Source: Stenomitos rutilans HA7619-LM2 | GTDB taxonomy: Bacteria > Cyanobacteriota > Cyanobacteriia > Leptolyngbyales > Leptolyngbyaceae | Assembly: GCA_019358945.1 (NCBI GenBank) | Contig: JAHHIE010000013.1 | Location: 57,670-121,669 of the forward strand | Direction of reading: 5' to 3' | Length of the DNA: 64,000 nucleotides | In this document: piece by piece, positions 24,091 through 38,616 of the stretch | How positions within the stretch are numbered: the first letter of the stretch is position 1 | Layout of the letters: each line of letters starts with the position of its first letter | Notes under the pieces: generated by a model | The model's database searches: none | What the model saw: only the letters and a program-made list of their open reading frames with translations | Told to the model about the DNA's origin: nothing | Made by a program: the position numbers and the translations under genes

Positions 24091-24111
24091 ATACCCCCAG
24101 GGGAATTCGAA
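24091..24111. repeat. attL: left 21-bp direct repeat of the integrated element
   Basis: Twenty-one bases starting ATACCCCCAGGGG and ending ATTCGAA are identical, in the same orientation, to 38596-38616, which is the T-loop-to-3'-end part of tRNA-Glu. The match stops exactly at both ends. This is the expected product of tyrosine-recombinase integration at a tRNA 3' end. Confidence 0.88.
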
Positions 24112-24316
24112 GTTGGTCAGAGAATAAGTATTTATGCTTATGAAAATAGGGGTCTATGCCCCTCTGACACGAGGATTTTCAGACATAACGACTAAGATAA
24201 GCGGCGATAGACCACCTCGGCATCATCACCCTGATCTATCGCCCGCCCGCTTCATCAACTTGCTATGCCGCGATCGCAGCCCCAAATCAGGGTGTAAAGA
24301 GATAGGGTAAGCAGAG

Positions 24317-25273
24317 TCATTGTCTCTTCGAGTCGGTTGGTGAACTGGTGGTGAATTGTGGAAACAGACCCTCAGCGTTCTGACGATTAATAGCTGAACG
24401 TAGCCCAGGGTCAAGCGGGTAAGCATCCAGCCCATTGGTGAAGTGATTGACCGCTTCTACAGGCGCGAACGGCCAGTCGCTACCAAAAAGAATGTGACTG
24501 GAATCAGCGAACGCCAGCAGGCTGGGCAATGCGGTCGGGCTACCAGACAGAGCGGTGTCGAAGTAAAACTGACGGAGATTGTTCAGTCCAGTTTCGTAGG
24601 TGCCATCGGTGGAACAAATGAGTGCCATCCGATGGGCAGCGTAAGGGATAAAGCCGCCAGCATGGGACAGAATCACTTTCAGATTGGGGTGGCGGGTCAT
24701 TGACCCAGAGGTGATCAAATTAATCGCCGCGCGAGTGGTATCGAGCAAGAAGTCAGCGGCGAAGGGTGGTACACCAGGCAAACTGGCTCCCGGTAAATCC
24801 GACGGATGGACAAAGACGATCGCATGACGACGGTTCAGCTCCTCCATGAGTGGGTCAAAAGCCTTCTCGCCCAGGTAGTGACCGTGAGTATTGGCGAGCA
24901 GAATCACCCCAGCAGCCTGCAATTTGTCTAAAGCGTAGACTGCTTCGGCTATAGCGCCATCAACATCCGGTAAGGGCAGGGTCGCAAAGAAGCTAAAGCG
25001 ATCAGGGCGATCGATCGCAACTTGAGCCGCAAACTCGTTCACTTCACGCGCCATGTCCCGTGCTTCAGCCCCACTTCCCAGGCTCACACCCGGCGTGGAC
25101 ACGGAGACAATGCCAGTGGCAATGCCATGCTTATCCATGAGGTCGATCGTTTCTTGTAAATCCCATTGGGGAATGGGTATGCTGCCAAAACTAAATCCTT
25201 TCGCGTTCACCCAGTCTCTATAAGCAGGTGGAACGATATGTTGGTGTACATCAATCCGGTTAGCACTAGACAT
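24317..25273 (-). CDS. ACMSD-like amidohydrolase/decarboxylase
   Basis: A 318-residue metal-dependent TIM-barrel enzyme. Metal-ligand motifs are visible in order: RIDVHQH near residue 10, IVFVHPSD, LSHAGGF, and FGSDWPF with the C-terminal Asp. This set matches the amidohydrolase-2 family around aminocarboxymuconate-semialdehyde decarboxylase and 6-methylsalicylate or gamma-resorcylate decarboxylases, which remove carboxyl groups from aromatic or related acids. I chose the ATG of MSSANRIDVHQH because GGAG lies eight bases upstream. An FAD ring hydroxylase gene lies just upstream on the same strand and a LysR regulator diverges, so a short aromatic-acid pathway is likely. The exact substrate is unknown. 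Confidence 0.83.
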   Translation of the reverse strand: MSSANRIDVHQHIVPPAYRDWVNAKGFSFGSIPIPQWDLQETIDLMDKHGIATGIVSVSTPGVSLGSGAEARDMAREVNEFAAQVAIDRPDRFSFFATLPLPDVDGAIAEAVYALDKLQAAGVILLANTHGHYLGEKAFDPLMEELNRRHAIVFVHPSDLPGASLPGVPPFAADFLLDTTRAAINLITSGSMTRHPNLKVILSHAGGFIPYAAHRMALICSTDGTYETGLNNLRQFYFDTALSGSPTALPSLLAFADSSHILFGSDWPFAPVEAVNHFTNGLDAYPLDPGLRSAINRQNAEGLFPQFTTSSPTDSKRQ

Positions 25274-25311
25274 TGTTTCTCCGTTACGTGACATCTGCAA
25301 ACTGTTGTCAA

Positions 25312-25423
25312 TAGGACTTATGCAAAAGCGGTCATCTTTCGCCCCCAAACCTCCAGGATTAGGGGTTTAATTGGCTTGATTCCCCCCAAAATTGGGGGCT
25401 AGGGGGCAAATGCGTAAGTCCTA
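25312..25423. mobile_element. 112-bp miniature inverted-repeat element
   Basis: The terminal repeats are TAGGACTTATGCA and TGCGTAAGTCCTA, inverted with one mismatch. The flanking pentamer GTCAA occurs at 25307-25311 and 25424-25428 and may be a target duplication. The interior is C/A- and G/T-rich with a CCCCCAAAATTGGGGG palindrome. It separates the two cargo genes and ends seven bases from the monooxygenase stop codon. No coding capacity; a transposase would have to be supplied in trans. Confidence 0.72.
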
Positions 25424-25429
25424 GTCAAA

Positions 25430-26533
25430 TTACTTACCTACAGGCAGCGGCTTGATTGCGGGCGAGGATCGTGAGGCGAGCTGCATTTTTTTGGTAAGTG
25501 GTGCCCGTTCCTCGTGGTAGCGGCGCAGTGCGTCGGGAATGTTTGTCATGCCGTCCCCGCTCAATGCCCGCGCCAACGCACCAGCATCCTGAATTGCCTG
25601 GTTCGCCCCCTGACCTGCGCGAGGAGCCATCGGGTGCGCCGCGTCGCCTAGCAGGGTGATGTGTGCGGTACTCCAGATCGCAATGGGTTCGCGTTCGTAG
25701 ACCGGGTTTGCCCGCACTGGAACGGTTCCAGCTTCGATTAGCTTAATCATGTCAGGATCAAAGCCCTGGAAGTAATCAAGGAGTTCTGAGGTTGGCACCT
25801 CGCTCGTCCACAAATCCTGCGGTGGGGTGTCCCGTACCATAATGGTGTCCATCGCCACCTCGTTCCCCCCGCGCAGCGGCAGCAACAGCATCTGCCGGGA
25901 GTCTTTTTCCCAGGAGTACAACCGATCGTTTGGCATATCTTCAGGCATCGCGGCACTGGGCGCAAGTCCCCGCAGGACGACCAGCTTTGAGAAGATTAGC
26001 GCGTCGTTATCAATAGACTTGCGAACCACGGACTTGATGCCGTCGGCTCCAATCACGACCTTAGCGCGCACCTGCCGCCCGTCGGCAAACCGGACGACAC
26101 CGCGATCGCCGTCTTCAAATGCCTCAACGCTTGTCATGCCGAGATGAACACACTGCTGATCGACACCCGACAGCAACAGAGCGTGGACATCGGCGCGATG
26201 CACAGAGTAGGCATTGCCTTCGCCAGTTAGGTCAGCAGCGATCGTCCCAATCGGGGTGCCTTCGCTGTCGCGCACATCGATTCCCTGGAGTTGTACCGCC
26301 TCAGCATAGAAGCGATCGGCGACACCCCATTGCTCGAACAATCGCACGCTGGGTTCACGGATGACGACCGCTCCGCCAATGGCTTGAAGGGCTTTGGTGC
26401 GTTCATAGACATGGGCAGTGATGCCAACCTGCCGCAGGGCAACGGCAGCCGCCAGTCCGCCGATACCCGCTCCGACGATCGCCACATCCACTTCGAGCGG
26501 CACGCTGATTTCCGTAATGTTGGATTCAGACAT
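25430..26533 (-). CDS. FAD-dependent aromatic-ring monooxygenase (salicylate hydroxylase-like)
   Basis: A 367-residue class A flavoprotein. It has the GAGIGG dinucleotide fold (21-26), an Arg-containing second strand, the GADG motif in VVIGADGIKSVVRKSI and the FAD-ribose motif GDAAHPMAPRAGQGANQAIQDAGAL. This places it among salicylate, 6-hydroxynicotinate and related NAD(P)H-dependent hydroxylases. The C-terminus is short for the family and ends seven bases from a mini-element, so a few tens of residues may have been lost or replaced. It lies upstream of the ACMSD-like gene and divergent from a LysR gene; together they look like a small aromatic-catabolism operon carried by the element. Confidence 0.83.
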   Translation of the reverse strand: MSESNITEISVPLEVDVAIVGAGIGGLAAAVALRQVGITAHVYERTKALQAIGGAVVIREPSVRLFEQWGVADRFYAEAVQLQGIDVRDSEGTPIGTIAADLTGEGNAYSVHRADVHALLLSGVDQQCVHLGMTSVEAFEDGDRGVVRFADGRQVRAKVVIGADGIKSVVRKSIDNDALIFSKLVVLRGLAPSAAMPEDMPNDRLYSWEKDSRQMLLLPLRGGNEVAMDTIMVRDTPPQDLWTSEVPTSELLDYFQGFDPDMIKLIEAGTVPVRANPVYEREPIAIWSTAHITLLGDAAHPMAPRAGQGANQAIQDAGALARALSGDGMTNIPDALRRYHEERAPLTKKMQLASRSSPAIKPLPVGK

Positions 26534-26572
26534 AATTCGATCTCCCGTTGAGTGCTACATTTCGACTAAAAT

Positions 26573-26632: not shown

Positions 26633-26731
26633 GGTTGCGTCAGTCCTGATTCCATTAGACTCATTGCCAATCAATTGATCAACGGGCAAAATATTGATGT
26701 ATCATTTCCTTTTAGTTGATGATGAGCCGCG

Positions 26732-27625
26732 ATGGATACCCTCGTGAGTATGCGCGTCTTTCGCTGGGTTGTGGAGCTAGAGAGCTTTGTGGCGGCGGCA
26801 GACCGGATGGAGATGTCGGCGGCAATGGTGAGTAAACACGTCATGCATTTGGAGCGACATTTGGGCGGACGCTTGCTGAATCGCACCAGTCGGCATCTGA
26901 GTTTGACAGAAAGCGGCACCATCTACTTTGAGCAATGCTGTGAAATGCTCGATCGCCTCAATGAAGTCGAAGCCACAGTCAGCCGAGCCGCCGTGGTTCC
27001 TAACGGTGTCCTGAAAATGAGCGCCCCAGACTGGTTTGCGAACCGGATTTTTACCCAGGCGATCGCCGACTATCGCACCCAATTTCCCGAAGTCACCCTG
27101 GAGATTGACCTGAGTGGGCGGATAGTGAATCTGGTCGAGGAAGGCTTTGATCTGGCGTTGCGAGCAACGCATCGGGAACCCAGTCGCACTCTGATTTATC
27201 GGGCGATAGCTCCCATTCAACTACGCATCGTTGCGGCACCGGCTTACCTGCACAGAGCGGGAAAGCCCACCCAGCCCGAAGCGTTAGCGCAACACGCCAT
27301 GATGACCTACTCGGTGATGCCAGAGAGTAAAGTGCCTCTGATCGGCTCGACGGGAAAAATTAGCGCAAAGTTCAGCTCCGTGCCTGTGCTGCGAACGAAT
27401 AACGTCAATTTGATCCACGAAGCGACAGTGAACGGCATGGGGATTAGTTTATTACCCACCTGGCTGATTGACAATGATCTTGCAACTGGAGCTTTAGAGG
27501 AAGTGCTGCCGGAGTATCACTTGCCCCCTAGCACCTTGTATGCGGTCTATCCCAGCCGCAAGTATCTCTCGTCGAAGGTGCGAACGTTTGTCGAGTTTAT
27601 GATTGATCGCTTCACAATAAACTAA
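26732..27625 (+). CDS. LysR-family transcriptional regulator
   Basis: A 297-residue regulator. The winged helix-turn-helix occupies about 1-60 (MRVFRWVVELESFVAAADRM, then AMVSKHVMHLERHLGGRLL). A LysR substrate-binding domain fills about 90-295. LysR proteins usually control a divergently transcribed operon in response to a pathway substrate, and here the FAD monooxygenase starts 198 bases away in the opposite direction. AT-rich dyads such as TTGATCAA near 26676 could be its binding site. The ATG of MDTLVSMRVF is the only good start. Closest-looking subgroups are the CrgA/DmlR type. Confidence 0.88.
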   Translation: MDTLVSMRVFRWVVELESFVAAADRMEMSAAMVSKHVMHLERHLGGRLLNRTSRHLSLTESGTIYFEQCCEMLDRLNEVEATVSRAAVVPNGVLKMSAPDWFANRIFTQAIADYRTQFPEVTLEIDLSGRIVNLVEEGFDLALRATHREPSRTLIYRAIAPIQLRIVAAPAYLHRAGKPTQPEALAQHAMMTYSVMPESKVPLIGSTGKISAKFSSVPVLRTNNVNLIHEATVNGMGISLLPTWLIDNDLATGALEEVLPEYHLPPSTLYAVYPSRKYLSSKVRTFVEFMIDRFTIN

Positions 27626-27745
27626 TGTCTTCACTAGTTATTCTAAAATTGCTATCGCCAAATTGCTCTATTGAGAACCGTGAAAAGAGCATTTTCAAAC
27701 TGCTGTCAATACAACTAAACGAAGCGGTATAACTATTAATAGATG

Positions 27746-27800
27746 GAAACTTTCCGCCTAAGATCCCAAATTGGATGGATAGGCAGAAACTTTCCGCCTA
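27746..27800. promoter_or_regulatory. Paired 15-base direct repeat upstream of the surface/virion-like operon
   Basis: GAAACTTTCCGCCTA is found at 27746-27760 and 27786-27800, 40 bases apart. The second copy also closes a hairpin with ATAGGC upstream of it. It is the only repeat in the 360-base interval 27626-27986, which precedes the seven-gene cluster and should contain its promoter. A regulator-binding role is inferred. Confidence 0.5.
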
Positions 27801-27986
27801 TCTCTCCTAGCTTACTGGACTAGAACTGGCATAAATCACCGTTCAGTTATAGTCTGCAACCCCGATGCTCTCGTTTCTGTTAGCTCCTACGCATAGGCTG
27901 AAAAGCCGATTCTTGCGTTGTACTTCTGCGGGATGCAGCAGAGAACCCACCAAAGGGCACACTGAGGCTAGTTTTGAGGAAAATTC

Positions 27987-28286
27987 ATGTCTGCATACCC
28001 GACTAAACCCTCGCAGGTTGCCACGTTAGAGCAGGAATTGGTGAGGCTCATTCTTGCCTATCAAGATTGCAACCCTAGAACCGCCATGCTTGAGGATCTG
28101 AACAATAATCAACTCTCCGCACAGTGGCAAATTAAGCAAACACCCGCAGGAGACACGATTTTTGTAGGCAGATGCACGATCGTTTTAGACCGAACGAACC
28201 TGACTGACACGTCCTCTAAGCCGTGGATTAAAGCGCTAGAAACACCGGGCGGCGCTGTGGTTCCCTCTGGCTACCTCTCAAACTAA
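27987..28286 (+). CDS. Element hypothetical protein, first gene of the seven-gene cluster
   Basis: A 99-residue soluble protein starting MSAYPTKPSQVATLEQELVR. It has an N-terminal helix and a C-terminal beta-rich part (TIFVGRCTIVLDRTN). GAGGAAAATTC before the ATG is a good ribosome site. No signal peptide or membrane segment is visible and I do not recognise a family. It ends 13 bases before the large proline-rich gene and is probably co-transcribed with it. Confidence 0.65.
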   Translation: MSAYPTKPSQVATLEQELVRLILAYQDCNPRTAMLEDLNNNQLSAQWQIKQTPAGDTIFVGRCTIVLDRTNLTDTSSKPWIKALETPGGAVVPSGYLSN

Positions 28287-28299
28287 GGGGAAGCAATTA

Positions 28300-30477
28300 A
28301 TGGTTACTGCTGCCTATCAAACTGGCACTGTTCCCGGTGTGGGCTTCTCTGCTCCGGCTGGTCTATCGGGTGGCCCTGCCCCTGTGAATGCGATCGCACC
28401 GTTCAGCCGATCGGGTGGCAACCCCTCCACGGCTCCCACACCGAACTTCACCCCGGCAAACAATGCCGTCCCCTTCACCCGTTCCGGCTCTGTACCAAGT
28501 GCGAGTCCATCGCCTGCTAACAATGTCGTGCCCTTTAGCCGTCCTAGCGGCTCTAGCACGTCAGGGCCAACCCCGGCAAACAACATCGCCCCTTTCAGCC
28601 GTGCCTCTCCCCCCTCGCCTGGCCCCGCAGCCAGCAACCCCTCATTAGGTGGCTCAATTCCCAATAATGGGCGGTTGCCGTCATCTGGTCGTGGACTGTC
28701 ACCGCTTGGAGCAGTACCCCTTAACATCGACATCAACCGGGCATCACAGAAAACCGCCCAAGAGATAGCCAACCAGACCGCCGCGAATGACCGGGAATTT
28801 GGCAGGGGCTACAACGGCGATTTTGTCGATCGCTATGACCCTACCAACCTGCAATTCGGGCAGGATGCACGCGCGTTTGAGCGGATGGGGTACAACAACT
28901 ACGGCGATGTTTGGCAGGATGCGTTTAACAACCTGAAAGACGCAGGGCAAAACGCTTTAAGGAATATCGGGAACTGGTTCAACCCGAATCGCTATCGCCC
29001 TCCAAAAGTGGGCAACCCAACCTCAAACCCAGGGACACCGATGGGTAAAGCAGGGGTGCTTTATCACGTTACTGGCAGCTACCAAAATAAGCAGGGGCAA
29101 ACAATTCCCGCTATCGATGCCACAGTGCTTGCTCCATTCAGCATTACTGAGCGAGCAGGGCAAGGGGATGTAAAACTGTTTTTTCTCAAGGATGCCAATG
29201 GTGAGAGGGGCTTTCTTGACATTGGGAAAGACAATATTCAAGGCTCTCCCAAAATCGATAATGCAACCCGGCTGGATGGGATTCAGGACTTAGAGCCGAA
29301 TCGCACCAGCGAACCGGGAACCATCCCCGCCTACGATCCATCCTCTGCCCCTTCGCTCGCGCCACTGACGCAGGCACCACCCACTACCGCGCCACAGCCA
29401 CTATCACCAGGAACCCCTACCCCATACCCGTTTCCTGACTATCCGGGACTCCCTAGACGGATGGGTGATCCAACTCCAACGCAAAACCCGGCTACCAGTC
29501 CAGCTAACTCCCCTGCCCCTGCTCCTACCAGTACACCCGGTCAACAGCCATCTTCCCCCGGTGGTTCGTTGCAGGCTCCTAGCCTCAATCCTGTCACCCC
29601 TACCACGCTCGATCCAGTTACCAAGCAATTCCCCAATCCTTCCCCACAACCAAACACGCTCAAACCACCCACACCACCCAACTGCAAAGATCCGTGTGTC
29701 CAAAAACTGAATGATAAGCAGGATGAACAAAAGCCCGTAACCATTAAGGTGAAGGTGTTTAAGGCGTGCAAAACAGACGATAGCGGCGCTGGCACTGGCA
29801 GCGCTGCCAGCGCTGCCAGCTCGTCATCCAGCGCTGCCAGCTCGTCATCCAGCAGTGGCAGCACTGGCAGCACACCATCTACTGATACCAGCCTCCCAGG
29901 TAATGCTATTTACGAGGAGAAAAGCATTCAAGTACCAAAAGCTGAAGCGGATAGCTATAAGCTTCTGTACGCTCGATTAGCTCGATTAGAGGCCGCACAA
30001 TGTAACAAACCAACGGACGCGATCGCATCTGTTCCCGAATGGTGGCAACTTCGGGCAGAGGCACAAAGACCACAGTTTGTAGTGATTTTTGCTGAGGTTT
30101 TAGGCACTGGGAAGCTAACAGATTCCCGGTGGTCTTTAACTATCCCTCACTACAATCGACCGAAAGGTTTCAAGCCTCGTATTCCTGACTACAACAAAGG
30201 CAATTTCGAGGGTATTTTGACCCTCACTGATAACTCAAAGATTATTGTGAACGCTAGCTCTGAAATGGAATGCAAACGAGTCATTAATGCGTTGAAAATT
30301 CTCGTAGATGCAAAATATCGCACTCAGAACGGCAAAGCAATTAAGGCCAAAGTAGGGGAAAGGCTGAACTCAGACTTCAAGAAGTGCAAAGTCACACCGA
30401 CCAGGGGAGATTTTTACAGCACTGGAGCCAGAAACATGCAGCCGACCTTTTCGGTTAATTTCCGGGCTAAGAAGTAG
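28300..30477 (+). CDS. Large modular proline/serine-rich element protein
   Basis: A 725-residue protein with no signal peptide or membrane helix. Residues 1-~140 are disordered and contain four repeats around the core PANN-(A/V/I)-VPFSR-S. About 140-230 is a helical Asn/Asp-rich region, and about 235-330 is a possible beta domain (GVLYHVTGSYQN to GFLDIGKDNI). About 340-470 is a proline linker, followed by a Cys-containing segment (NCKDPCVQKL), a Ser/Ala/Gly tract (about 495-530) encoded by 21-base DNA repeats at 29809-29850, and a globular C-terminal domain of about 180 residues. GGGGAAGC upstream supports the ATG. Function unknown; the domain-linker-domain plan recalls minor coat or tail-fibre-like proteins. 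Confidence 0.75.
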   Translation: MVTAAYQTGTVPGVGFSAPAGLSGGPAPVNAIAPFSRSGGNPSTAPTPNFTPANNAVPFTRSGSVPSASPSPANNVVPFSRPSGSSTSGPTPANNIAPFSRASPPSPGPAASNPSLGGSIPNNGRLPSSGRGLSPLGAVPLNIDINRASQKTAQEIANQTAANDREFGRGYNGDFVDRYDPTNLQFGQDARAFERMGYNNYGDVWQDAFNNLKDAGQNALRNIGNWFNPNRYRPPKVGNPTSNPGTPMGKAGVLYHVTGSYQNKQGQTIPAIDATVLAPFSITERAGQGDVKLFFLKDANGERGFLDIGKDNIQGSPKIDNATRLDGIQDLEPNRTSEPGTIPAYDPSSAPSLAPLTQAPPTTAPQPLSPGTPTPYPFPDYPGLPRRMGDPTPTQNPATSPANSPAPAPTSTPGQQPSSPGGSLQAPSLNPVTPTTLDPVTKQFPNPSPQPNTLKPPTPPNCKDPCVQKLNDKQDEQKPVTIKVKVFKACKTDDSGAGTGSAASAASSSSSAASSSSSSGSTGSTPSTDTSLPGNAIYEEKSIQVPKAEADSYKLLYARLARLEAAQCNKPTDAIASVPEWWQLRAEAQRPQFVVIFAEVLGTGKLTDSRWSLTIPHYNRPKGFKPRIPDYNKGNFEGILTLTDNSKIIVNASSEMECKRVINALKILVDAKYRTQNGKAIKAKVGERLNSDFKKCKVTPTRGDFYSTGARNMQPTFSVNFRAKK

Positions 30478-30499
30478 CCTTCGGGCTTAAGGCCGAAGG
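30478..30499 (+). other. Intra-operon hairpin after the proline-rich gene
   Basis: CCTTCGG and CCGAAGG form a strong stem with an eight-base loop starting one base after the stop codon. No T-tract follows, so it is more likely an RNA-processing or stabilising hairpin than a terminator. Confidence 0.5.
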
Positions 30500-30586
30500 T
30501 ATTCGGGTTGAATGCAAAGTTAGGCGCTGTGGGATGTGTGGGCAATTTAGGGTTACTACTCTCATCTCCCTTGAAGAGCCTCAACC

Positions 30587-31090
30587 ATGTCGTCTATTAC
30601 CACCACCGGATCAAGCCTGAAATCGACTCATCTCCCTTCTGCGTTGCTCGAAACCGCTTTACTACTGGATGCAGCAGAGAAGGGGCGTAACGGTGCAAAT
30701 CCTGGCATTGCACCCAAGAACAACATCACCATCACTTTCAATGCGGATGATGGCACCTGTGCAATTGCGGCTGCTATTCCCGTTGATGTGACGGTGGGGT
30801 CAGGTGGGGCGTTGACCTACGCCGCTAAGGACTATCTAGGTTCTAGCTATACGACCTTCACGGCTGGCGGCGATGTGACGGCAAGCAATGTGATTGCAGC
30901 CTTCGTCCAGGTCGCTCAAATCTTGAGTGCAGCAGAGAAGGCCATCAGCCCCATTGAAGACCAGCCCAATAACATCACGGTTGATTCTTCCAGCGAAACT
31001 CAAACCATCACGATCGCTGCGAATCTGCCTGTCGTTAGTTCCATCAACAGCAGCGGTAACGTGCTTTTCAGCGCTACTGATTATCTCTAA
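30587..31090 (+). CDS. Element protein with a duplicated beta-repeat; candidate major surface/coat subunit
   Basis: A 167-residue acidic protein. Two copies of a ~40-residue unit can be aligned: one starting NNITITFNADDGTCAIAA and ending KDYL, the other starting NNITVDSSSETQTITIAA and ending TDYL. Each has alternating hydrophobic residues typical of beta strands. A helical DAAEKG/SAAEKA segment precedes each copy, so the whole unit is duplicated. There is no signal peptide. Such small repetitive beta proteins are common among virion coat or decoration proteins, but this is inference. Spacing to the next gene is 57 bases. Confidence 0.7.
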   Translation: MSSITTTGSSLKSTHLPSALLETALLLDAAEKGRNGANPGIAPKNNITITFNADDGTCAIAAAIPVDVTVGSGGALTYAAKDYLGSSYTTFTAGGDVTASNVIAAFVQVAQILSAAEKAISPIEDQPNNITVDSSSETQTITIAANLPVVSSINSSGNVLFSATDYL

Positions 31091-31147
31091 CTCCCTGAGT
31101 GCTTGAGTGTTCAATTTAACGACGACAACTTAGGAGTTTAGAGAGCA

Positions 31148-31573
31148 ATGGCTAACAAAAAGTACGCGGCAAAAGGGCCACGGAAGTACGTTGATTGGGG
31201 TACGGTTAAACGCAAAGTAAACGGCAAATCGACATCGGTTAAAGTCTACTCGCGTGTGATTTCAAGCGTTTCAACAGCGCTAGGAATCACAGTCATAGAA
31301 CCTGCCAAGCTTCCCGGTGCCACAGTCAAAACCAAGAAAAACAAGGCTCAATATCTGGGAGGGCCTTCAATCACAAAATCAGGGTCTAAATACCTGCTTT
31401 GTTCCACTGGTGAAACTAGAAAGAACAAATCAGGCACCTACACGGTATTCCATCGTGTTCCCGTTCCCCCTGAAATTTCAGCGGCGAAGGCTGTAGCCGT
31501 GTTGAAAAAGTCAAAAGTGAAGCTGATTAAGTTTCCGAATGGGACAGAATACGCAATTGGCACGGGCAAATAA
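31148..31573 (+). CDS. Small basic element protein
   Basis: A 141-residue, strongly Lys-rich protein starting MANKKYAAKGPRKYVDWGTVKR. Repeated short basic patches alternate with predicted beta strands. AGGAGTTTAGAG lies before the ATG. The charge would suit DNA binding or packing inside a particle, or electrostatic contact with the acidic neighbour encoded just upstream. No known motif is visible, and no signal peptide. Confidence 0.65.
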   Translation: MANKKYAAKGPRKYVDWGTVKRKVNGKSTSVKVYSRVISSVSTALGITVIEPAKLPGATVKTKKNKAQYLGGPSITKSGSKYLLCSTGETRKNKSGTYTVFHRVPVPPEISAAKAVAVLKKSKVKLIKFPNGTEYAIGTGK

Positions 31574-31603
31574 TTAAGTTTCAATCGCTCAGAGCGGGGG
31601 GAT

Positions 31604-32212
31604 ATGGCGCAACTGCTCCTAAAAACAACACTGGATTTTTCTAGTGTTCGAGCAAGGGATATCCCCCTTTTCTTTTTGCCTACAGCGTTAATTATCGGGA
31701 TTGAAGATGGGAACGTAGCTGAGATTTTAGATGCTGCCTACCTCATTCAATACCCCTTTGTTAATAGCTTTGGCTTTGTTAAAGGGGATTACTTTCGGCT
31801 CTCTAGCGGTTTCAATTTGATTCGGTTTGATGTCAGGTTGCAATCTAAATTCCGCTTGTTGCCACTGCGAAAGCAATCACAAATCACTCTTTCTATTTGG
31901 GATGTTGCTATGCCCTTCTCATCCGATCCAAACGCACAGAGTTCTACAAGTGGCACTACAACCACGTTTGCAGCCTCGATTACATCGGCTGCCATACTTC
32001 CTGCAAACCCAAACCGGAAAGGGTTGCTTGTCGTGAACAATGCAGCCGCCGCCATTTTGTATATCGGTTACGGTGCCACAGTGACCCCTACAACCTTTGC
32101 AGTTAAAGTTAGCCCTGGTCAGTCATGGGAGAGTCAACAGGACTACGACGGACCGCTTTCAGGGGTGTGGAGTGCTGCTCTAGGAAGCGCACAAGTGACG
32201 GAGTACGTTTAA
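31604..32212 (+). CDS. Element hypothetical protein with C-terminal beta domain
   Basis: A 202-residue protein. About 1-95 is mixed and hydrophobic in patches (IPLFFLPTALIIGIED), and about 100-202 is a Thr/Ser/Ala-rich beta domain ending AQVTEYV. The C-terminal domain (NRKGLLVVNNAAAAILYIGYG) resembles small jelly-roll or fibre-tip domains seen in phage structural proteins. GGGGGGAT precedes the ATG. It ends three bases before the next ATG, which suggests translational coupling with the discoidin-like gene. Family not recognised. Confidence 0.65.
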   Translation: MAQLLLKTTLDFSSVRARDIPLFFLPTALIIGIEDGNVAEILDAAYLIQYPFVNSFGFVKGDYFRLSSGFNLIRFDVRLQSKFRLLPLRKQSQITLSIWDVAMPFSSDPNAQSSTSGTTTTFAASITSAAILPANPNRKGLLVVNNAAAAILYIGYGATVTPTTFAVKVSPGQSWESQQDYDGPLSGVWSAALGSAQVTEYV

Positions 32213-32215
32213 GCA

Positions 32216-33196
32216 ATGAGTTGGTTGTTTGTTTTTCGCAAAATCTATCAGCTCAATGCTAAGACCGACCCTATACGCTTGCCCATCTTGTTTCAGCCAT
32301 ATCACCGACTGATTGTGCAGGCACGTCCGGTCGCAGGTGTGGGTGAGGCTGAACCGTCATTGGGCACGTTAACCCAAATGCTATCGATTGACGGCTTTGG
32401 AGATGTGCATGGTGAGATGGTCACGCTTCCCGCTGGCTACTTGCTCTTTGTGCCCTCATCCGAGATTGAGTACAGGCTGCTGCTACAGCCAACGGGCCGT
32501 GAATACTCATTTGAGCTGGCAATCTGGGCAGATAGTGAAGCCCTGGCGGTAGGCACTTCTGCCCCAACTCCCACCGTTGACCTGTCACCAGTGGAGACAG
32601 CGATCGCTGCACTTTCGGAGAATCAGCAAACGATTCTCACGGAGTTGGTAGCACTGTCTAACGGCCTCACAGCCCTCTTGCTGAGTGATAGTCAGATCGT
32701 CACGTCGATTAATCAGCTTACTACTGCTATCCAGTCGCAGCAGCAACCAACCCCAACCCCGGCCCCAAACCCTAGCGCGTCAGGGGTTGCTTACACGGCT
32801 TCTCAATCGTCACTGAGAAGCGGCAATACGTTCTTTAAGGCCACGTATGCCAACCTGACAGATGGCGATCAAACATCCGGGGGAGTTACAGACGGCACCT
32901 ATGGCGCGTGGATTATGGCTACCTTCCCCTACAAAGTGAAGGTGACTCAAATCGCTCTCAGCGGTGGCACTCTGGACGGTTACGGGGATTCTTCCGGTTC
33001 GCAGAATGGCGCGACGCTGCAAGGCTCGGTGGATGGGTCAACCTGGGCAAATCTAGCAACGGTTTCGGGCATCCCTAACTACACTGCTTCAGGGGCAAAA
33101 ATCGTTAATTTCGCGCTCAATAGTCCGGTTGATGTCACTGCTATCAGGGTGTTTAAGGATGGTGAGATAGCCATGCCTCGCTTTGAGTTCCAATAA
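32216..33196 (+). CDS. Discoidin-like (F5/8 type C-like) element surface protein
   Basis: A 326-residue protein. About 1-110 is a beta-rich domain, about 115-175 is a helical stalk region (SPVETAIAALSENQQTIL to LTTAIQSQQQ), then a Pro/Thr linker, and about 185-326 is a galactose-binding-like domain. The last part shows typical discoidin features: ASQSS early, NLTDGDQTSGGV, WIMATFPYKVKVTQIAL and a final IRVFKDGEIAMPRFEF. Such domains bind glycans and are used in phage receptor-binding proteins and bacterial adhesins. No signal peptide is seen, which favours a particle-borne over a Sec-exported protein. It is the best candidate receptor binder of the cluster. Confidence 0.72.
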   Translation: MSWLFVFRKIYQLNAKTDPIRLPILFQPYHRLIVQARPVAGVGEAEPSLGTLTQMLSIDGFGDVHGEMVTLPAGYLLFVPSSEIEYRLLLQPTGREYSFELAIWADSEALAVGTSAPTPTVDLSPVETAIAALSENQQTILTELVALSNGLTALLLSDSQIVTSINQLTTAIQSQQQPTPTPAPNPSASGVAYTASQSSLRSGNTFFKATYANLTDGDQTSGGVTDGTYGAWIMATFPYKVKVTQIALSGGTLDGYGDSSGSQNGATLQGSVDGSTWANLATVSGIPNYTASGAKIVNFALNSPVDVTAIRVFKDGEIAMPRFEFQ

Positions 33197-33219
33197 TTCC
33201 TGAATCACAGTGCAAACCT

Positions 33220-33642
33220 ATGCCGATAGATGCCAGCTTCATAACTGCGGTGGGTGGATTGGCTTCTGGGGCTTTCGCTGCCTACTGGACAGTGAAAACC
33301 TACTATCAGAAGCGACAGGACGAGCAACGCGACAGGCAGAGACAGGAACTAGCCCAGGCTCAGGCAGAGATCGAGCGTCAAAAGGCTAAACGGCAGTCAG
33401 AGCTTGATCGCTATGCTGAAGGAAAAACGAAGGCATACGCGGCTGAGAGGGACTTTCAACACTTGATGAGGCAATACGACGCACTCAACATTAACCTCAC
33501 CACGTTGCACGAATTTCAAGAGAAACGGGTGCAAGACATTGAGGACGACCTACGCACCATCAAAGGACTGCTGCAAGCCCTATTGATTGCTTCTGGTCAA
33601 ACGGAAACGGGCATTATGCGCTATTTGAAGCGTGAAGAGTAG
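33220..33642 (+). CDS. Membrane-anchored coiled-coil element protein
   Basis: A 140-residue protein with one short N-terminal hydrophobic stretch (FITAVGGLASGAFAAYW, about 7-23), then a long charged coiled coil (about 30-125) rich in Arg, Gln and Glu. It is the last gene of the rightward cluster. Size and topology resemble small phage proteins that sit in the inner membrane, such as spanins or holin-associated proteins, but a holin or endolysin is not seen nearby. Function unknown. Confidence 0.62.
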   Translation: MPIDASFITAVGGLASGAFAAYWTVKTYYQKRQDEQRDRQRQELAQAQAEIERQKAKRQSELDRYAEGKTKAYAAERDFQHLMRQYDALNINLTTLHEFQEKRVQDIEDDLRTIKGLLQALLIASGQTETGIMRYLKREE

Positions 33643-33652
33643 TTGAGTGGGC

Positions 33653-34108
33653 CTAGCGTCGATCGCGCTCCAAGTCAAAAATGACCTTTTCCCAAACCCA
33701 TTGCTCGGTTTGCATTGGATTGACTTGCCGAGTGTGTTCAAGTAAGCGCTTCGCTGTTTCCATCTCACCGTTGACTAGCGTGAAAAGTTGGCTCTGCACC
33801 TTGCTGGAAACGGGCTGCGTTGGTTTGGCTTTAGCCACTGTAGAGGTTTTATGCAGGCGTTGTTTTAGCTGTTGCTCTGCTTGGCTCCAATTCACTTGTG
33901 AACTAGTTGTTTGAGGTGGTTGAGCAGTTGGCAAGCGGCGTTTGCGATAATACTCAGCCTGTTGTTGCTCTAACTCTGAAATTACTTTCTGTAAGTACCA
34001 CAGTGCAATGTTTCCAGGGTGTTTGGCTTGTGCCGTTTCGATGAGGTGGTTGGCTTTTTTCTTATCTCCCTTGCACAGTTGCACAATCCGATTAAGTAAA
34101 GCATCCAT
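33653..34108 (-). CDS. Element protein with two related helical repeats
   Basis: A 151-residue soluble protein. The N-terminal unit (IVQLCKGDKKKANHLIETAQ to WYLQKVISELE) and the C-terminal unit (LFTLVNGEMETAKRLLEHTR to WVWEKVIFDLE) are clearly the same ~40-residue module, joined by a basic Gln/Pro-rich linker. The module looks like a two-helix TPR-like or DNA-binding unit. I chose the ATG of MDALLNRI because AGGATT lies upstream and the longer frame runs through a hairpin. It is convergent with the rightward cluster, 10 bases apart. Confidence 0.65.
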   Translation of the reverse strand: MDALLNRIVQLCKGDKKKANHLIETAQAKHPGNIALWYLQKVISELEQQQAEYYRKRRLPTAQPPQTTSSQVNWSQAEQQLKQRLHKTSTVAKAKPTQPVSSKVQSQLFTLVNGEMETAKRLLEHTRQVNPMQTEQWVWEKVIFDLERDRR

Positions 34109-34135
34109 TTGGGGAATCCTGAAGGTAATTGCAAC

Positions 34136-34165
34136 AAAGTCCCTTTTCAACTGAAGAGGGACTTT
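34136..34165. other. Hairpin between two minus-strand element genes
   Basis: AAAGTCCCTTTT and AAGAGGGACTTT pair with one wobble around a six-base loop. T-rich sequence follows only on the plus side. It lies just upstream of the two-repeat gene and might act as a weak plus-strand terminator for the rightward cluster or as a leader hairpin. Confidence 0.45.
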
Positions 34166-34183
34166 TATTAAGATTCCCTGCAA

Positions 34184-34209
34184 CAAAAAAACCCTACCGG
34201 AGTAGGGTT
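34184..34209 (-). terminator. Rho-independent terminator of the exported-protein operon
   Basis: On the minus strand AACCCTAC, a four-base loop and GTAGGGTT form an eight-bp stem followed directly by a run of seven T. It lies about 50 bases after the stop of the minus-strand gene ending at 34258. Confidence 0.82.
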
Positions 34210-34257: not shown

Positions 34258-34695
34258 CTAATCTTTGTACTCGTCCGGTCGTTTGTCTTTGGGATAGTTG
34301 CGACGGGAATCAGAGGAGCCTCTATCAGTCTCTTCAGCCCTTGTGTAACACCCGTCTTCATCCCACGATCCACGCTTCCCATAGTCTCTAACAGCTTCAT
34401 TCCCTACTCTTTCCTCATCATCGGTATAGATGACTCTACGGCCTCCCCTACCATCATTCGATGATAACTTCCACCACGATTGAAAGTAGTTCGTGATGCC
34501 TTCCAGCGGGATATGGACGATGCCACCACTGACGAGTAGCCCGCGCATGATGCCGCTACCGTCAAAGGTCTCTTCCAGGATGACCCCGTTCCCAGCATCG
34601 ATAGGCTTGAGAACAGCCGTATGCTGTTTGCCTGCAACGGTGTACTCATAGATGTGGACGAGGGTAAGCTGCAAGTCTTTAAGGTTCCACTTCAT
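34258..34695 (-). CDS. Element hypothetical protein coupled to the exported protein
   Basis: A 145-residue protein. The N-terminal half is beta-rich (MKWNLKDLQLTLVHIYEYTV, then GIMRGLLVSGGIVHIPLEGI), and the C-terminal half is very hydrophilic with many Asp, Glu, Arg and Gly, probably disordered. The ATG of MKWNL overlaps the TAA stop of the upstream gene in a TAATG arrangement, which implies translational coupling. A strong terminator follows the gene. No family is recognised. Confidence 0.6.
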   Translation of the reverse strand: MKWNLKDLQLTLVHIYEYTVAGKQHTAVLKPIDAGNGVILEETFDGSGIMRGLLVSGGIVHIPLEGITNYFQSWWKLSSNDGRGGRRVIYTDDEERVGNEAVRDYGKRGSWDEDGCYTRAEETDRGSSDSRRNYPKDKRPDEYKD

Positions 34696-35006
34696 TAGTT
34701 GGCCCCCCATGACTCTGCGCTTGCTGCATATCCATCAGCGCTATACGCACCATACGCAGCCTCACCAACAGTTGCAGTTGCAGCACTATCAGCTTGAGAA
34801 CTGGCCTGTCGATAGTTGGTGCCATAGCCATGCAGGTCACGGTAGACAGAAGCACCAGCCTGCTCTGCGGCGCGGTTGAGGTCTCCCCAGCGGTAGACGC
34901 AGTTGCCTTCACTGAGGGCAGGAGGAGGGGACGTGATTAAACCGGGCAATTGTGCCCCTAAAATGGCGGCGATCGTGGCGATCACCAAGCGTTGAAAAAC
35001 TGACAT
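34695..35006 (-). CDS. Small exported element protein
   Basis: A 103-residue protein with a Sec-type signal sequence (FQRLVIATIAAILGAQLPGL), a short mature part with one Cys, and an Ala/Ser/Gly/Tyr-rich C-terminus with repeats of the AAYGAYSADGYAASAE kind. It could be periplasmic or surface exposed. Its stop codon overlaps the ATG of the next gene. Position between the repressor and the coupled gene suggests expression from the integrated state, as with lysogenic-conversion or superinfection-exclusion genes, but that is inference. Confidence 0.62.
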   Translation of the reverse strand: MSVFQRLVIATIAAILGAQLPGLITSPPPALSEGNCVYRWGDLNRAAEQAGASVYRDLHGYGTNYRQASSQADSAATATVGEAAYGAYSADGYAASAESWGAN

Positions 35007-35106: not shown

Positions 35107-35388
35107 TCAGTGATTAGTCACCTCCTCTTTTTCTTCTCTTAGCAACTCCTCTCTGGTAGGAAGCTCGAACCCAATCATTTGAATGGTTTCGTCTATGGAT
35201 TTTCCAGCAAGGACAGCAATTCTGAGAACGATGTCTAACTTTTCAGGTAAACGTCCTTCGTTCTCGTAGCGCTGCCACATTCTAGGAGCTACACCCACAG
35301 CCCTAGCCATCTGTTGCCTATTGAGTCCTGCCATCTCCCTTAAAGCTTTCAAGCCGGGATTCCCTCTCACTGAGTCACGTGTAGTCAT
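35107..35388 (-). CDS. XRE-family (Cro/CI-like) helix-turn-helix repressor of the element
   Basis: A 93-residue DNA-binding protein. The helix-turn-helix is clear: LREMAGLNRQQMARAVGVAP then RMWQRYENEGRLPEKLDIVL, with the typical Gln at the recognition turn. The acidic C-terminus may dimerise. I prefer the ATG of MTTRDSVRGNPG; longer versions starting at 35400 or 35430 would translate the operator palindrome itself. The gene faces away from the rep-int genes, and the region between holds three TCAGACAT half-sites, so it most likely controls both itself and the early rightward genes. Confidence 0.78.
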   Translation of the reverse strand: MTTRDSVRGNPGLKALREMAGLNRQQMARAVGVAPRMWQRYENEGRLPEKLDIVLRIAVLAGKSIDETIQMIGFELPTREELLREEKEEVTNH

Positions 35389-35393
35389 AGTAT

Positions 35394-35452
35394 CAGACAT
35401 CCATGTCCGGCGGACACCGATGTCTGACATAGTTGGTCAGACATCGGTGTCC
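35394..35452. promoter_or_regulatory. Operator region of the element's genetic switch
   Basis: GGACACCGATGTCTGA at 35412-35427 and its perfect reverse complement at 35437-35452 flank a nine-base spacer. The half-site TCAGACAT(C) also occurs at 35394-35402, so there are three half-sites in 59 bases. A second small palindrome, GTCCGGCGGAC, covers 35405-35415. The layout beside a divergent XRE gene is what is expected of a repressor-operator switch. Confidence 0.75.
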
Positions 35453-35659: not shown

Positions 35660-35860
35660 ATGAGCAAGATCACAGACCAAACAATCACCAATCTGACCTA
35701 TGAAGTCTCCCAGTTAGCGGCTGACTACTTGGCTCTCGCCACCCGCTTGAATGAACTCAATCACAACTTGGTGAGTGACCGCGATGTGAAGGGAGCCAAG
35801 CAACGGCTCGACCGACTGCGATCGCTCTTCAAAGGTCTTCAGCAGCAAAAAGACGACTGA
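35660..35860 (+). CDS. Small early protein of the element
   Basis: A 66-residue helical, coiled-coil-prone protein starting MSKITDQTITNLTYEVSQLA. I chose this ATG because AGGAGA lies 13 bases upstream and the longer frame to the left runs through the operator and a terminator with no protein-like composition. It is the first rightward gene after the switch region and is followed by a strong terminator. It could be a Cro-like, excision or accessory factor, but no motif is clear. Confidence 0.6.
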   Translation: MSKITDQTITNLTYEVSQLAADYLALATRLNELNHNLVSDRDVKGAKQRLDRLRSLFKGLQQQKDD

Positions 35861-35876
35861 AGCCACTCAAACAGAA

Positions 35877-35914: not shown

Positions 35915-35965
35915 ATGTCACGGGTTTGGAAACCCCGTTTAGTTATGCCCTTTAGGAACAAACAA

Positions 35966-37726
35966 ATGACTACCGACCTCAGACGCAATGCCCTGAACGA
36001 ATTGTTGCAGGAAATCTATGATGCCACTGTAACAGGCACACCAGAGCTAGAGCTACCCCAAATCGCCCGTTGGTCTGGCGTGCCCCTGGAAACGCTCGAA
36101 GACATTGGTAAACGGCTGGTCGAGAAGAAACTGAACCATGACATTGATGCTGATCAGTTCAACGAGATGCTCAGTCGCTACCGCAAAATCGACCAGATCG
36201 AAGACGCAGGACTGCGGGCCTGGAAGCTGCAAGGGTTAGCTCGTCGCTACAAACGCCCTGTGCAACATCTCACTGAAGCCTACAGCAAAGCACTAGTGAA
36301 TCAGTGTGCCGTCAAACCACTGACACCGAAAGAGTTTCGGGCACTGCATGAGGCCGAAGTGGACTGGCTGGTCAAAGGTTGGATACCCACTGGCACCATG
36401 CTCTTACTGCACGCCGACGGTGGCGTTGGTAAAACCCTGTTCAGCTACGAATTGATGGAATGCGTCCTCACTGGCAAACCCTGGAACGGCTACCCCGTGA
36501 AGCAGGGCAAAGTCTTACTCGTCCAAACGGATGAACCCACCCTCGTTACCCATGAACGGATTGACATTCGCGGCATTGACGACGAGGCCCCGTTATCTCT
36601 CCTCACCGATTGGCAAATTGAGGCGATGGCCCGCCTGGAGACCTTCGTGAAAGAGACCCGCCCGGAGTTACTCATCGTGGACTCCCTCACCAGCATCAAC
36701 CGTTCGTGTGTGTTCAGCGAGAACGATACCGAATATGCCCGTCCGCTGTTGGAGTTAGCGCGCCTGGGCAACACCTACGGCTGCACGGTCATCATTATTC
36801 ACCACAGCAACGCTGAGGGTAACAGTCGCGGGACGAGAGCCATCTACAACTCGGTCTCGGAAGTATGGGGCCTGAGCAAGGGCGAACAACTCAACGATCG
36901 CTTGCTGCGGGTGCAAAAAACGCGGCTCGGTCGTCCGCCTGGTCGCTATCGGTTCCGCTTTGATGATGAAGACTTCACCTTTGCCTACCAAGGCGAGGAC
37001 TATGGCCCTGATCACGCCGACCAAAGCGACACCGAAGCCACCAACGAAAAACGCATTCAACTCTGGCTCAACGAGGGCGATCGCCCTGGTACCCCCTTCA
37101 CCGCTCAAGAAGTGTCTGAGTTTTTGGGGTTAGCCTACGACACCACACGCCGCTCACTCTATGAACTGTGGGCTAAAGGGCTAGTAAAACGCTCACGACT
37201 CCAGGGGCAGAAGCAATACACGTACTTCACCAGTGGCTTGTTAAGGGATGTAACAACTGATCAACTGATCGCTCCCTCCAAACCGAGTGATCAGTTGTGT
37301 AAGCCCGATGCCATCACGGTTTCACCCCCAACTGATCAACTGATCACTCAAAACACGGTTTTTGAAACCGAAAAAAATTTGAAAACCAAGCGATCAGTTG
37401 ATCAGTACGAAGCTTTCGTTACATTTGAGGCCGTCACCACCCCTCAAATTGGTGACATCATCGTCGCTAAAGCGCATGCCAGATGGATTCGTAGCGGTTC
37501 GGATAAACTGCCTTGGCGCGAGGTTCGACCGAGTGACAAGCAAGCCGCCGAGATTCCGATCGACCTGCTCACGGCCACACTGTTCGAGGAACTCATCCAG
37601 CCGTCCAAAGTGTTGGAGCTTACTAGGGATAGTCAGAAGGTGAAAGTACGACAGCAGACGACGGGACGCACCAGTGTTTTCCCTATCAGTGATGTTTGCG
37701 TACTGAAGAAAGTTGGCAACGGCTGA
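35966..37726 (+). CDS. RepA-like RecA-fold replicative ATPase of the element
   Basis: A 586-residue protein. About 1-115 is an N-terminal helical domain, about 120-345 is a RecA-type ATPase with Walker A GGVGKT ending near residue 157, Walker B ELLIVDSLTSI and a sensor strand VIIIHHSN. About 365-420 is a winged-helix domain (AQEVSEFLGLAYDTTRRSL), about 425-480 a low-complexity linker with repeated TDQLI, and the rest a beta-rich tail. This matches RepA-type hexameric helicases of plasmids and integrative elements. The ATG of MTTDLRR is chosen because AGGAAC lies just upstream, while earlier starts sit against a terminator. The integrase starts seven bases after the stop. Confidence 0.82.
   Translation: MTTDLRRNALNELLQEIYDATVTGTPELELPQIARWSGVPLETLEDIGKRLVEKKLNHDIDADQFNEMLSRYRKIDQIEDAGLRAWKLQGLARRYKRPVQHLTEAYSKALVNQCAVKPLTPKEFRALHEAEVDWLVKGWIPTGTMLLLHADGGVGKTLFSYELMECVLTGKPWNGYPVKQGKVLLVQTDEPTLVTHERIDIRGIDDEAPLSLLTDWQIEAMARLETFVKETRPELLIVDSLTSINRSCVFSENDTEYARPLLELARLGNTYGCTVIIIHHSNAEGNSRGTRAIYNSVSEVWGLSKGEQLNDRLLRVQKTRLGRPPGRYRFRFDDEDFTFAYQGEDYGPDHADQSDTEATNEKRIQLWLNEGDRPGTPFTAQEVSEFLGLAYDTTRRSLYELWAKGLVKRSRLQGQKQYTYFTSGLLRDVTTDQLIAPSKPSDQLCKPDAITVSPPTDQLITQNTVFETEKNLKTKRSVDQYEAFVTFEAVTTPQIGDIIVAKAHARWIRSGSDKLPWREVRPSDKQAAEIPIDLLTATLFEELIQPSKVLELTRDSQKVKVRQQTTGRTSVFPISDVCVLKKVGNG
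37255..37407. repeat. Iteron-like 8-mers and AT tract inside the rep gene; candidate replication origin
   Basis: AACTGATC occurs as tandem pairs at 37255-37270 and 37330-37345, and inverted as GATCAGTT at 37289-37296 and 37392-37399, with a 7/8 copy at 37400-37407. An A/T-rich stretch (about 37357-37388) lies between the last two groups. The repeats fall in the protein's low-complexity linker, where they encode TDQLI and similar. Iterons plus an AT region inside the initiator gene is the plan of the lambda origin within gene O. Confidence 0.6.
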
Positions 37727-37732
37727 GCGCTC

Positions 37733-38548
37733 ATGCCACATAGCTGCCAGTTCTGGATCAATCGTTTTAGGGAAGACTTTCTACAGCGCGGAAGGTCGGA
37801 AACCTCATGGCTGACGGACTATCAAAAAATCTTGAAGCTCCTTCCTCCAAACGCTACCCTGACGGCCAACGTTCTGCATGAAGTTGTGGTAGGTACACCC
37901 GTGAACAGCAAAACTCGTAAACGAGCCTGCATGGTGACTGGGGCGATCGCGCGGTTCGCGGGGGTGAAATATGACCCCTCACCCTACGCTGGCAACTACT
38001 CACCAGCCGCAGTTAACCCGCGCAACATCCCTTCTGACCGGTTGATCTGTGAATGGTACGACCGACTCACCAATCCCGGTTGGAAGTGGATTTTTGCCGT
38101 CATTGCAACCTATGGCTTAAGACCACATGAAGCCTTCAGGCTTGACTTTGAGCGTTTTCGGGAACGCAACCCAATTGTGTTTGTGGAACGCAATACCAAA
38201 ACAGGTAGCCGCTTGGTGTGGGCGTTCCATCCCGAATGGATTGAGCGGTTCAGCTTGTTCTCGGTGACATTGCCGCCGATCGACTTAACCCGCCCAAACG
38301 TGAAAGTGGACGAGTCAGCCAGTCACTACTTCAAGGATGTGAAGCTGCCCTTTCATCTGTACGACATGCGCCACAGTTGGGCCATTCGCACCCTCGAATA
38401 CGGGTTAGACCCTAGTTTGGCAGCGAAGCAAATGGGTCACAGCCGTGAAGTGCACGACCGCATCTACCACCGCTGGGTTGAAGAATCAGTCCAACAGAGA
38501 GCTTACGAAGCACTATTACTGAAGACTGATCGACCAAAGCCGCCTTAA
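37733..38548 (+). CDS. int: Tyrosine-type site-specific integrase of the element
   Basis: A 271-residue recombinase. The N-terminal DNA-binding part covers about 1-85 and the catalytic domain follows. Catalytic residues seen are Arg130 (YGLRPHEAF), Arg213 in LYDMRHSW, His in KQMGHSREV, and the nucleophile Tyr245 in DRIYHRW. The box II His is replaced by Tyr210, a change tolerated in some integrases. It lies 48 bases from the tRNA-Glu 3' end and just after rep, the usual place for an integrase that uses the tRNA as attB. It would integrate and, with a helper, excise the element. Confidence 0.9.
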   Translation: MPHSCQFWINRFREDFLQRGRSETSWLTDYQKILKLLPPNATLTANVLHEVVVGTPVNSKTRKRACMVTGAIARFAGVKYDPSPYAGNYSPAAVNPRNIPSDRLICEWYDRLTNPGWKWIFAVIATYGLRPHEAFRLDFERFRERNPIVFVERNTKTGSRLVWAFHPEWIERFSLFSVTLPPIDLTRPNVKVDESASHYFKDVKLPFHLYDMRHSWAIRTLEYGLDPSLAAKQMGHSREVHDRIYHRWVEESVQQRAYEALLLKTDRPKPP

Positions 38549-38595
38549 TTCTTTCGCTGTATAATTCTGAAACCCGCTCTGAGAGCGCATTCCAA

Positions 38596-38616
38596 ATACC
38601 CCCAGGGGAATTCGAA
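38596..38616. repeat. attR: right 21-bp direct repeat, inside tRNA-Glu
   Basis: Identical to 24091-24111. It covers the tRNA-Glu 3' end through the T-loop plus one base beyond, so integration leaves the tRNA gene intact on this side. Confidence 0.88.

Follow-up and report, generated by a model that had tools for sequence, protein, structure and literature searches.

A 14.5-kb integrated element in a tRNA-Glu gene of Stenomitos rutilans HA7619-LM2 and its relatives in cyanobacteria

Results and discussion

Boundaries of the element and its empty site

The stretch of DNA analysed in this study (64,000 nucleotides, hereafter the window) belongs to contig C3 of the 7.28-Mb genome of Stenomitos rutilans HA7619-LM2, and it contains an integrated element of approximately 14.5 kb (positions 24091-38616) located in a tRNA-Glu gene. 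The element is bounded by a perfect 21-bp direct repeat, ATACCCCCAGGGGAATTCGAA, with copies at 24091-24111 and 38596-38616. The tRNA-Glu(ttc) gene (38597-38669, minus strand) is intact, so the right copy of the repeat represents the last 20 nucleotides of the tRNA plus one flanking base, and the open reading frame (ORF) of a tyrosine integrase stops at 38548, 48 bases from the end of the tRNA. These three observations, on which an initial annotation of this DNA had been built, were all reproduced. The chance expectation for such a 21-mer in 64 kb is approximately 1.5e-6, and the 18-bp core of the repeat (at most one mismatch) occurs at three places in the whole genome: both ends of the element and an orphan site on another contig (C4:55183).

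The comparison with related genomes proposed in the initial annotation revealed the corresponding empty site. In six of 30 fetched site loci (L024, L026, L030, L031, L033, L044) the UbiB gene, tRNA-Glu and the Npun_R1517 gene (the last present in 41 of 42 genomes of the host's family) are adjacent, with no element between them; two of these sites, both from genomes of the same genus, held up on longer stretches (L089, L090). The tRNA of genome G038 lies 124 bp past the end of UbiB and is followed by the Npun_R1517 gene, and the order in G036 is identical. Moreover, the left flank of the window element (24041-24111) aligns at 79% to a sequence joined directly to the tRNA in an empty site (L024 1213-1283). 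Three further genomes (G034, G037, G039) have the tRNA and the Npun_R1517 gene, with neither UbiB nor element genes in the 11-17 kb to the left of the tRNA. A related element occupies the same tRNA in another genome of the genus (G035, locus L053); its integrase is disrupted into two pieces (L053 18745-19553), and no second repeat was found within the 20 kb fetched. The locus combines repeats of a tRNA 3' end with the tRNA left intact, an adjacent site-specific recombinase and an empty site in relatives, as is characteristic of tRNA-targeting elements. We conclude that 24091-38616 is a genuine integrated element whose two limits are marked by a duplicated 21-bp stretch of the tRNA-Glu 3' end.

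Gene content

The view that this is a tRNA-targeted element with integration, replication, switch and surface-type genes is supported by its gene content (Table 1). The "surface-protein module" of the initial annotation does contain such genes; it is better described as a conserved block resembling a particle or late operon.

Among the ORF products of the window element, a canonical Walker-A motif is present in the AAA_25 protein alone, which is also the only one assigned to an ATPase family (AAA_25/KaiC) by Pfam. The Walker-A scan is a weak one: its pattern failed to pick up the AAA_25 relative in L056 or the ParA protein of L081, and gave chance-looking matches in other ORFs of L079, L062, C54 and C99. 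Distant relatives of the AAA_25 protein are phage and plasmid helicases or ATPases. The XRE repressor gene lies upstream of it, on the other strand. The integrase alignment retains a pattern of arginine, lysine, arginine-histidine, histidine and tyrosine, which we take to be the catalytic set; the window integrase lacks the N-terminal region found in the integrases linked to tRNA-Met and tRNA-Phe and in that of Phormidesmis priestleyi Ana. The P. priestleyi Ana element yielded no AAA_25 protein; it encodes a 477-aa protein that clusters with an L069 protein having a weak, below cut-off Prim-Pol match; a clear Prim-Pol protein is encoded by plasmid pHT582-1.

Table 1. Features of the element and its target site (positions in the window)
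Feature	Position	Strand	Basis
Left attachment repeat, 21 bp	24091..24111		exact match to 38596-38616
Left-end sequence common to C4 and C54	24112..24265		85% to C4 over 24094-24217; 78% to C54 over 24157-24265
Cargo amidohydrolase (Amidohydro_2)	24317..25348	-	Pfam 4.6e-30
Cargo FAD-dependent aromatic-type monooxygenase	25430..26533	-	Pfam FAD_binding_3 3.5e-32; the 25 NCBIfam models shown all below cut-offs
Cargo LysR-family regulator, divergent to the enzymes	26732..27625	+	Pfam
Dispersed intergenic repeat, not element-specific	27693..27940		full or partial matches in 29/42 family genomes
p99, block gene g1	27987..28286	+	family n=13 in 13 loci
p725, large Pro/Ser-rich protein, g2 position, distinct C-terminal domain	28300..30477	+	14 C-terminal homologues including itself
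p167, g4-type	30587..31090	+	family link to L057 only
p141, strongly basic (+24), g5 position	31148..31573	+	no detectable g5 similarity
p202, C-terminal phage-type beta domain (g9/g10 family)	31604..32212	+	phrog_30212 2e-4, function unknown; 13 members, 11 loci
p326, C-terminal discoidin (F5/8C) domain	32216..33196	+	Pfam 1.8e-4 (below cut-off); PHROG tail protein 3e-5
p140 (g13), coiled coil, possible N-terminal membrane segment	33220..33642	+	26 homologues including itself
p177, conserved element protein	33653..34186	-	gene-family clustering
p150, conserved element protein	34258..34710	-	identity 95% in C54, 82% in C99
p103, conserved, N-terminal hydrophobic segment	34695..35006	-	identity 99% in C54, 80% in C99
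XRE-type repressor	35107..35430	-	Pfam HTH_31 4.9e-8; weak RstR-family match, 30.5 bits (cut-off 80)
Small conserved ORF (66 aa) before replication gene	35660..35860	+	conserved C-terminal part of ORF 35321-35860 in C54, C99; start inferred
AAA_25 (RepA/RadA-type) ATPase, likely replication helicase	35915..37726	+	Pfam 1.2e-28; PHROG primase/helicase 3.6e-17
Compact tyrosine integrase, 271 aa, without arm-binding region	37733..38548	+	PHROG integrase 1.1e-13; alignment
Right attachment repeat, tRNA-Glu 3' end	38596..38616		repeat match
tRNA-Glu(ttc), intact target	38597..38669	-	last 20 nt lie in the right repeat

A family of related elements in cyanobacteria

The initial annotation called the element undescribed, and it is likely of a kind not described before. 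It does not stand alone: further copies of its family were found elsewhere in this genome and in numerous other cyanobacteria. Family members are elements of approximately 14-17 kb which have in common a long gene block on one strand (encoding a small protein, a large Pro-rich protein, beta-rich and discoidin proteins and a coiled-coil protein) together with repressor, replication and integrase genes. A set of 29 loci (L061 and L081 being two forms of one plasmid) yielded gene families such as g3 (24 members), g2 (22), g5 (21), g6 (19), g7 (18), g1 and g9/g10 (13 each) and g13 (11). Where these genes occur, their order is always g3-g5-g6-g7, and in 20 of 22 cases g2 lies ahead of g3. An integrase of the window type is encoded in nine of the 29 loci and a second integrase-type cluster (one member checked in Pfam) in six.

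A g3 profile gave matches in 55 of 388 Cyanobacteriia genomes, representing 31 of 160 genera, and at 21 loci in named cyanobacterial records, four of which (L060, L062, L073, L080) duplicate DNA of other loci in the set; in the survey of 388 genomes the window genome itself had no match. Carriers of core genes include Leptolyngbya PCC 7375, Calothrix PCC 7507 and Leptolyngbya NIES-3755. Matches to a p140 profile were obtained in six of 42 genomes of the host's family. Several proteins of 522-524 aa (L009 10909-12477, L011 10840-12408, L078 1736-3310) cluster with g3, and are apparently fusions of g3 to an N-terminal region which is separate in other elements. A size peak near 14-15 kb among metagenomic contigs was not clear by eye in the 120 of 151 matches listed, and is not claimed.

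The window element shares with the family g1, g4, g9/g10, g13, p177, p150, p103, AAA_25 and the integrase, whereas the g2 and g5 positions are filled by versions peculiar to it. A first alignment paired p141 with g5; a profile comparison gave no support, and p141 is therefore assigned to the g5 position only. A collinear resemblance between the C-terminal domain of p725 and g3 was not significant.

Signs of mobility in the relatives

Both terminal repeats were identified in four of seven tRNA-linked copies, including that of the window. The other three are the elements of P. priestleyi ULC007 (L056; tRNA-Glu repeats of at least 62 bp, approximately 13.9 kb), P. priestleyi Ana (L079; tRNA-Glu repeats of 24 bp, approximately 13.9 kb) and genome G015 (L058; tRNA-Lys repeats of 48 bp, approximately 17.2 kb). 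Paired repeats were not found in L053, L076 and C99, the last of which is cut by a contig end. A second integrase fragment is located just past the far repeat of the ULC007 element (L056 14107-14433), which suggests a trace of a former tandem insertion.

One relative (L054/L062) is a 14,716-bp contig whose ends overlap exactly by 141 bp, which implies a circle of 14,575 bp; an overlap of this length on a contig named k141 is what MEGAHIT would be expected to give for a circular molecule. The family's integrase was not detected on this contig. In Nostocales cyanobacterium HT-58-2, core genes are present on the chromosome and on two circular plasmids: pHT582-1 (CP019637.1, 37,028 bp), with g2, g3, g5-g8 and an annotated ParB, and pHT582-2 (CP019638.1, 15,633 bp), with g2 and g3 only and annotated ParA/ParB. 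A MACPF domain occurs in a 1664-aa protein that is also encoded by the latter (L081 9827-14821).

Copies within the same genome

Related elements reside on contigs C99 and C54 of the window genome. The AAA_25 proteins of the window and C99 are 90% identical; p140 is 76% identical to its counterparts in both C54 and C99, and p326 42% (C54) and 50% (C99). The large proteins of both contigs show weak similarity to p725, and their g3-like 522-aa proteins are tied to g3 by a blastp cluster only. Synonymous divergence (dS) between the window and C54 is uneven among nearby genes (0.01 for p103, 0.40 for p150 and 1.78 for p140), and the copies are, judged by this pattern, a mosaic produced by exchange among them.

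In ten of 13 gene comparisons the ratio of nonsynonymous to synonymous divergence (dN/dS) was 0.03-0.20; one further value, 0.33, is based on almost no changes, and two were uncomputable (synonymous sites saturated). These ratios are rough, because several dS values exceed 1, and they indicate that the shared genes are under purifying selection. The lowest values were obtained for g5, p140 and the 522-aa g3-type protein, and higher ones for the discoidin protein. The identities between the C99 and C54 products are 61% for the discoidin protein, 84% for g7, 91% for p140, 92% for the 522-aa protein and 95% for g5; the greater divergence of the discoidin protein would be expected of a receptor-binding part.

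Proteins of the conserved block

With its discoidin domain, p326 is likely a receptor-binding protein. Family-wide, the median net charge is +9 for g5, a basic protein, and -13 for g6, which is strongly acidic. A membrane-like segment is present in 13 of 22 g2 proteins; such segments are rare elsewhere (g1 0/13, g3 2/24, g5 0/21, g6 0/19, g7 1/18, g9 1/13, g13 3/11), and p140 of the window fails the simple hydropathy threshold passed by the three g13 proteins. The g2 protein of pHT582-1 contains collagen-type repeats.

Database searches with the core proteins were largely negative. No PDB match was found for g3, g5 or g7, and Pfam gave nothing for the g3-type, g5 and g7 proteins of C54. PHROGs matched none of 20 g3 and none of 13 g7 members; for g5 there were weak matches to three families, each to at most two of 99 members. 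INPHARED contained no match to g2, g3 or g5. AlphaFold2 models of proteins from relatives were confident for g5 (predicted local distance difference test score, pLDDT, 89.5; 99 sequences) and moderate for g3 (pLDDT 80.0; predicted template modelling score 0.59; 20 sequences). Neither model had a usable PDB match, and the g5 model had no match in BFVD.

The nature of the element

We regard it as just about probable that the element is a temperate provirus and represents an as yet undescribed family of cyanobacterial viruses. This interpretation is based on the attachment repeats and integrase, the empty sites, the tRNA repeats at both ends of relatives and the circular relative; on the conserved core order, the occurrence of g3 in 55 of 388 genomes, purifying selection and mosaic exchange; and on the resemblance of p326 and p202 to phage structural or tail domains and the presence of an Amidase_3 gene adjoining the L065 block. 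The compact integrase would recombine the two repeats to release a circle of approximately 14.5 kb, leaving the tRNA-Glu intact. Silencing is likely due to the XRE repressor, and the AAA_25 protein would serve as the replicative helicase. Late expression of the block 27987-33642 would then yield a particle, with p326 as its putative receptor-binding part and p140 as a candidate assembly or release protein; the genes of the 24.3-27.6 kb segment, enzymes and a divergent regulator, are probably exchangeable. The particle, packaging and release are inferred steps. A broader and more doubtful proposition is that such proviruses form a new lineage, widespread in cyanobacteria, whose particles have an architecture of their own, with coat-type proteins of no known fold and no recognisable packaging motor; the absence of the core proteins from viral catalogues would explain why it has been overlooked.

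Several findings weigh against a provirus. Neither Pfam (applied to all 17 element ORFs) nor PHROGs (ten of the 17) nor the Walker-A motif revealed a recognisable capsid protein, portal, terminase or packaging ATPase in the window element, and the g3 and g5 models of relatives matched no capsid fold, double-jelly-roll included. Scans of IMG/VR returned no relative, which leaves the family without a record from virus-enriched sequence in this analysis, and a lysis-type gene was seen beside one block only (L065), no systematic search for lysis genes having been made. In L067 and L075, g2 is on the opposite strand. Furthermore, g3, g5, g6 and g7 were not recognised in the window copy (the profile comparison detects no relation between p141 and g5), so the family argument runs through g1, g4, g9, g13, AAA_25, the integrase and the p177/p150/p103 cluster. 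Neither a particle nor excision or induction has been observed.

Markers of the standard classes were likewise not detected in these scans: neither the terminase, portal and HK97-type capsid of tailed prophages (Pfam and PHROGs), nor the relaxase and type IV secretion genes of integrative and conjugative or mobilizable elements (Pfam), nor a pI/Zot-type morphogenesis ATPase of inoviruses (no Zot family in Pfam). A second, packaging ATPase was found neither by Pfam nor by the Walker-A pattern, which also missed known ATPases in L056 and L081. The portal, terminase and conjugation genes that the initial annotation had not recognised were not found by these scans either. Its conclusion that the element fits no standard class stands as regards recognisable marker genes; the element may nonetheless depend on a helper phage.

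Such dependence is unlikely but deserves serious consideration: the element may be a satellite or tycheposon-like element with its own integration and replication, which uses the capsid of a helper cyanophage and whose block encodes adaptors (receptor-binding or capsid-modifying). Phage satellites integrate into tRNA genes and possess their own replication gene, as does the element, and the cargo and the lack of a recognised packaging ATPase also fit. The sizes of the copies with both ends found (13.9-17.2 kb) are in keeping with the 6-18 kb typical of satellites (phage-inducible chromosomal islands, PICI; capsid-forming cfPICI; P4-like; PICMI) according to a review (PMC11389934). In contrast to these satellites, the element has no recognised known packaging gene, no PHROG packaging family having appeared among the proteins scanned, and it carries a long structural-type block of its own (approximately 5.7 kb in the window, with many genes). 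The tycheposons of Prochlorococcus, as described in PMC10872708 and PMC10187409, are also cyanobacterial elements with a tyrosine recombinase beside a tRNA and exchangeable cargo. The likeness is one of layout, the variable cargo amounting to three cases, and the recurring conserved structural-type block sets the present family apart.

Alternatively, the element might be an integrative plasmid with a surface or adhesion apparatus that serves the host or cell-to-cell transfer without any virion. Plasmids pHT582-1 and pHT582-2 carry the same core families (annotated as hypothetical), and the adhesion-type discoidin domain, the collagen-type repeats in one g2 protein and the membrane-like segments in 13 of the 22 g2 proteins point the same way. 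We consider this explanation improbable, given that Pfam revealed neither a relaxase nor a type IV secretion gene, that membrane-like segments are rare in block families other than g2, and that integrases of two types occur in nine and six of the 29 loci. The plasmids differ from the family elements in their annotated partition proteins, and pHT582-2 holds only part of the block. Temperate Caudoviricetes that integrate into tRNA genes have an attachment repeat, integrase, repressor and replication helicase. The element resembles them in all these respects and in its fibre-like discoidin protein, but it is shorter and has no recognisable terminase, portal or capsid protein. A decaying tailed-prophage remnant that has lost its capsid and packaging genes would account for the phage-like beta domains, the tail-protein match of p326 and the damaged state of L053. 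This explanation is disfavoured and very improbable: the block is found again in many genera, the reading frames of the window are open, purifying selection is strong in ten of 13 comparisons, and other integrated copies have a similar size.

If the provirus interpretation is correct, approximately one in seven of the surveyed cyanobacterial genomes (55/388) has a core gene from a family of mobile elements that possess a large structural-type block and are unlisted in the phage and virus collections searched here. Such elements would represent a new gene-transfer vehicle for cyanobacteria, with an exchangeable cargo site. The two conserved families without a detected fold match, g3 and g5, offer entry points for structural and functional work. 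Since carriers include culture-collection strains (PCC 7375, PCC 7507, NIES-3755), the virus question is directly testable.

Probable cargo segment and repeated sequences

Copies differ from one another in the segment adjoining the left end (24.3-27.6 kb), which is therefore probably cargo. Its counterpart on C54 contains an NmrA-like reductase and a TetR regulator, and that on C4 a glyoxalase-family gene and an AraC-type regulator. Three distinct sets of enzymes and regulator between similar flanks suggest an exchangeable cargo site, although the number of cases is small and the flank on the right consists of a dispersed repeat. The C4 copy (C4:55183-55305; L012 7184-7306) is an orphan attachment core with the left end of the element, without tRNA or element block; a search for element proteins there found none.

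The nearly identical 230 bp upstream of p99 (27693-27940), present in three copies, was initially read as a cis-acting origin or late promoter. This idea was dropped because the sequence is a dispersed intergenic repeat found, in whole or in part, in 29 of 42 family genomes. It contains two direct repeats, and its long forms are confined in this genome to C3, C54 and C4; long forms also occur in G037, where searches with g3 and p140 gave no match. The cargo segment also contains, around the start of the amidohydrolase gene (25311-25423), a 113-bp repeat that recurs many times in the host genome in both orientations. Outside the element, positions 6001-7000 show a strong AT skew (0.31) relative to the rest of the window.

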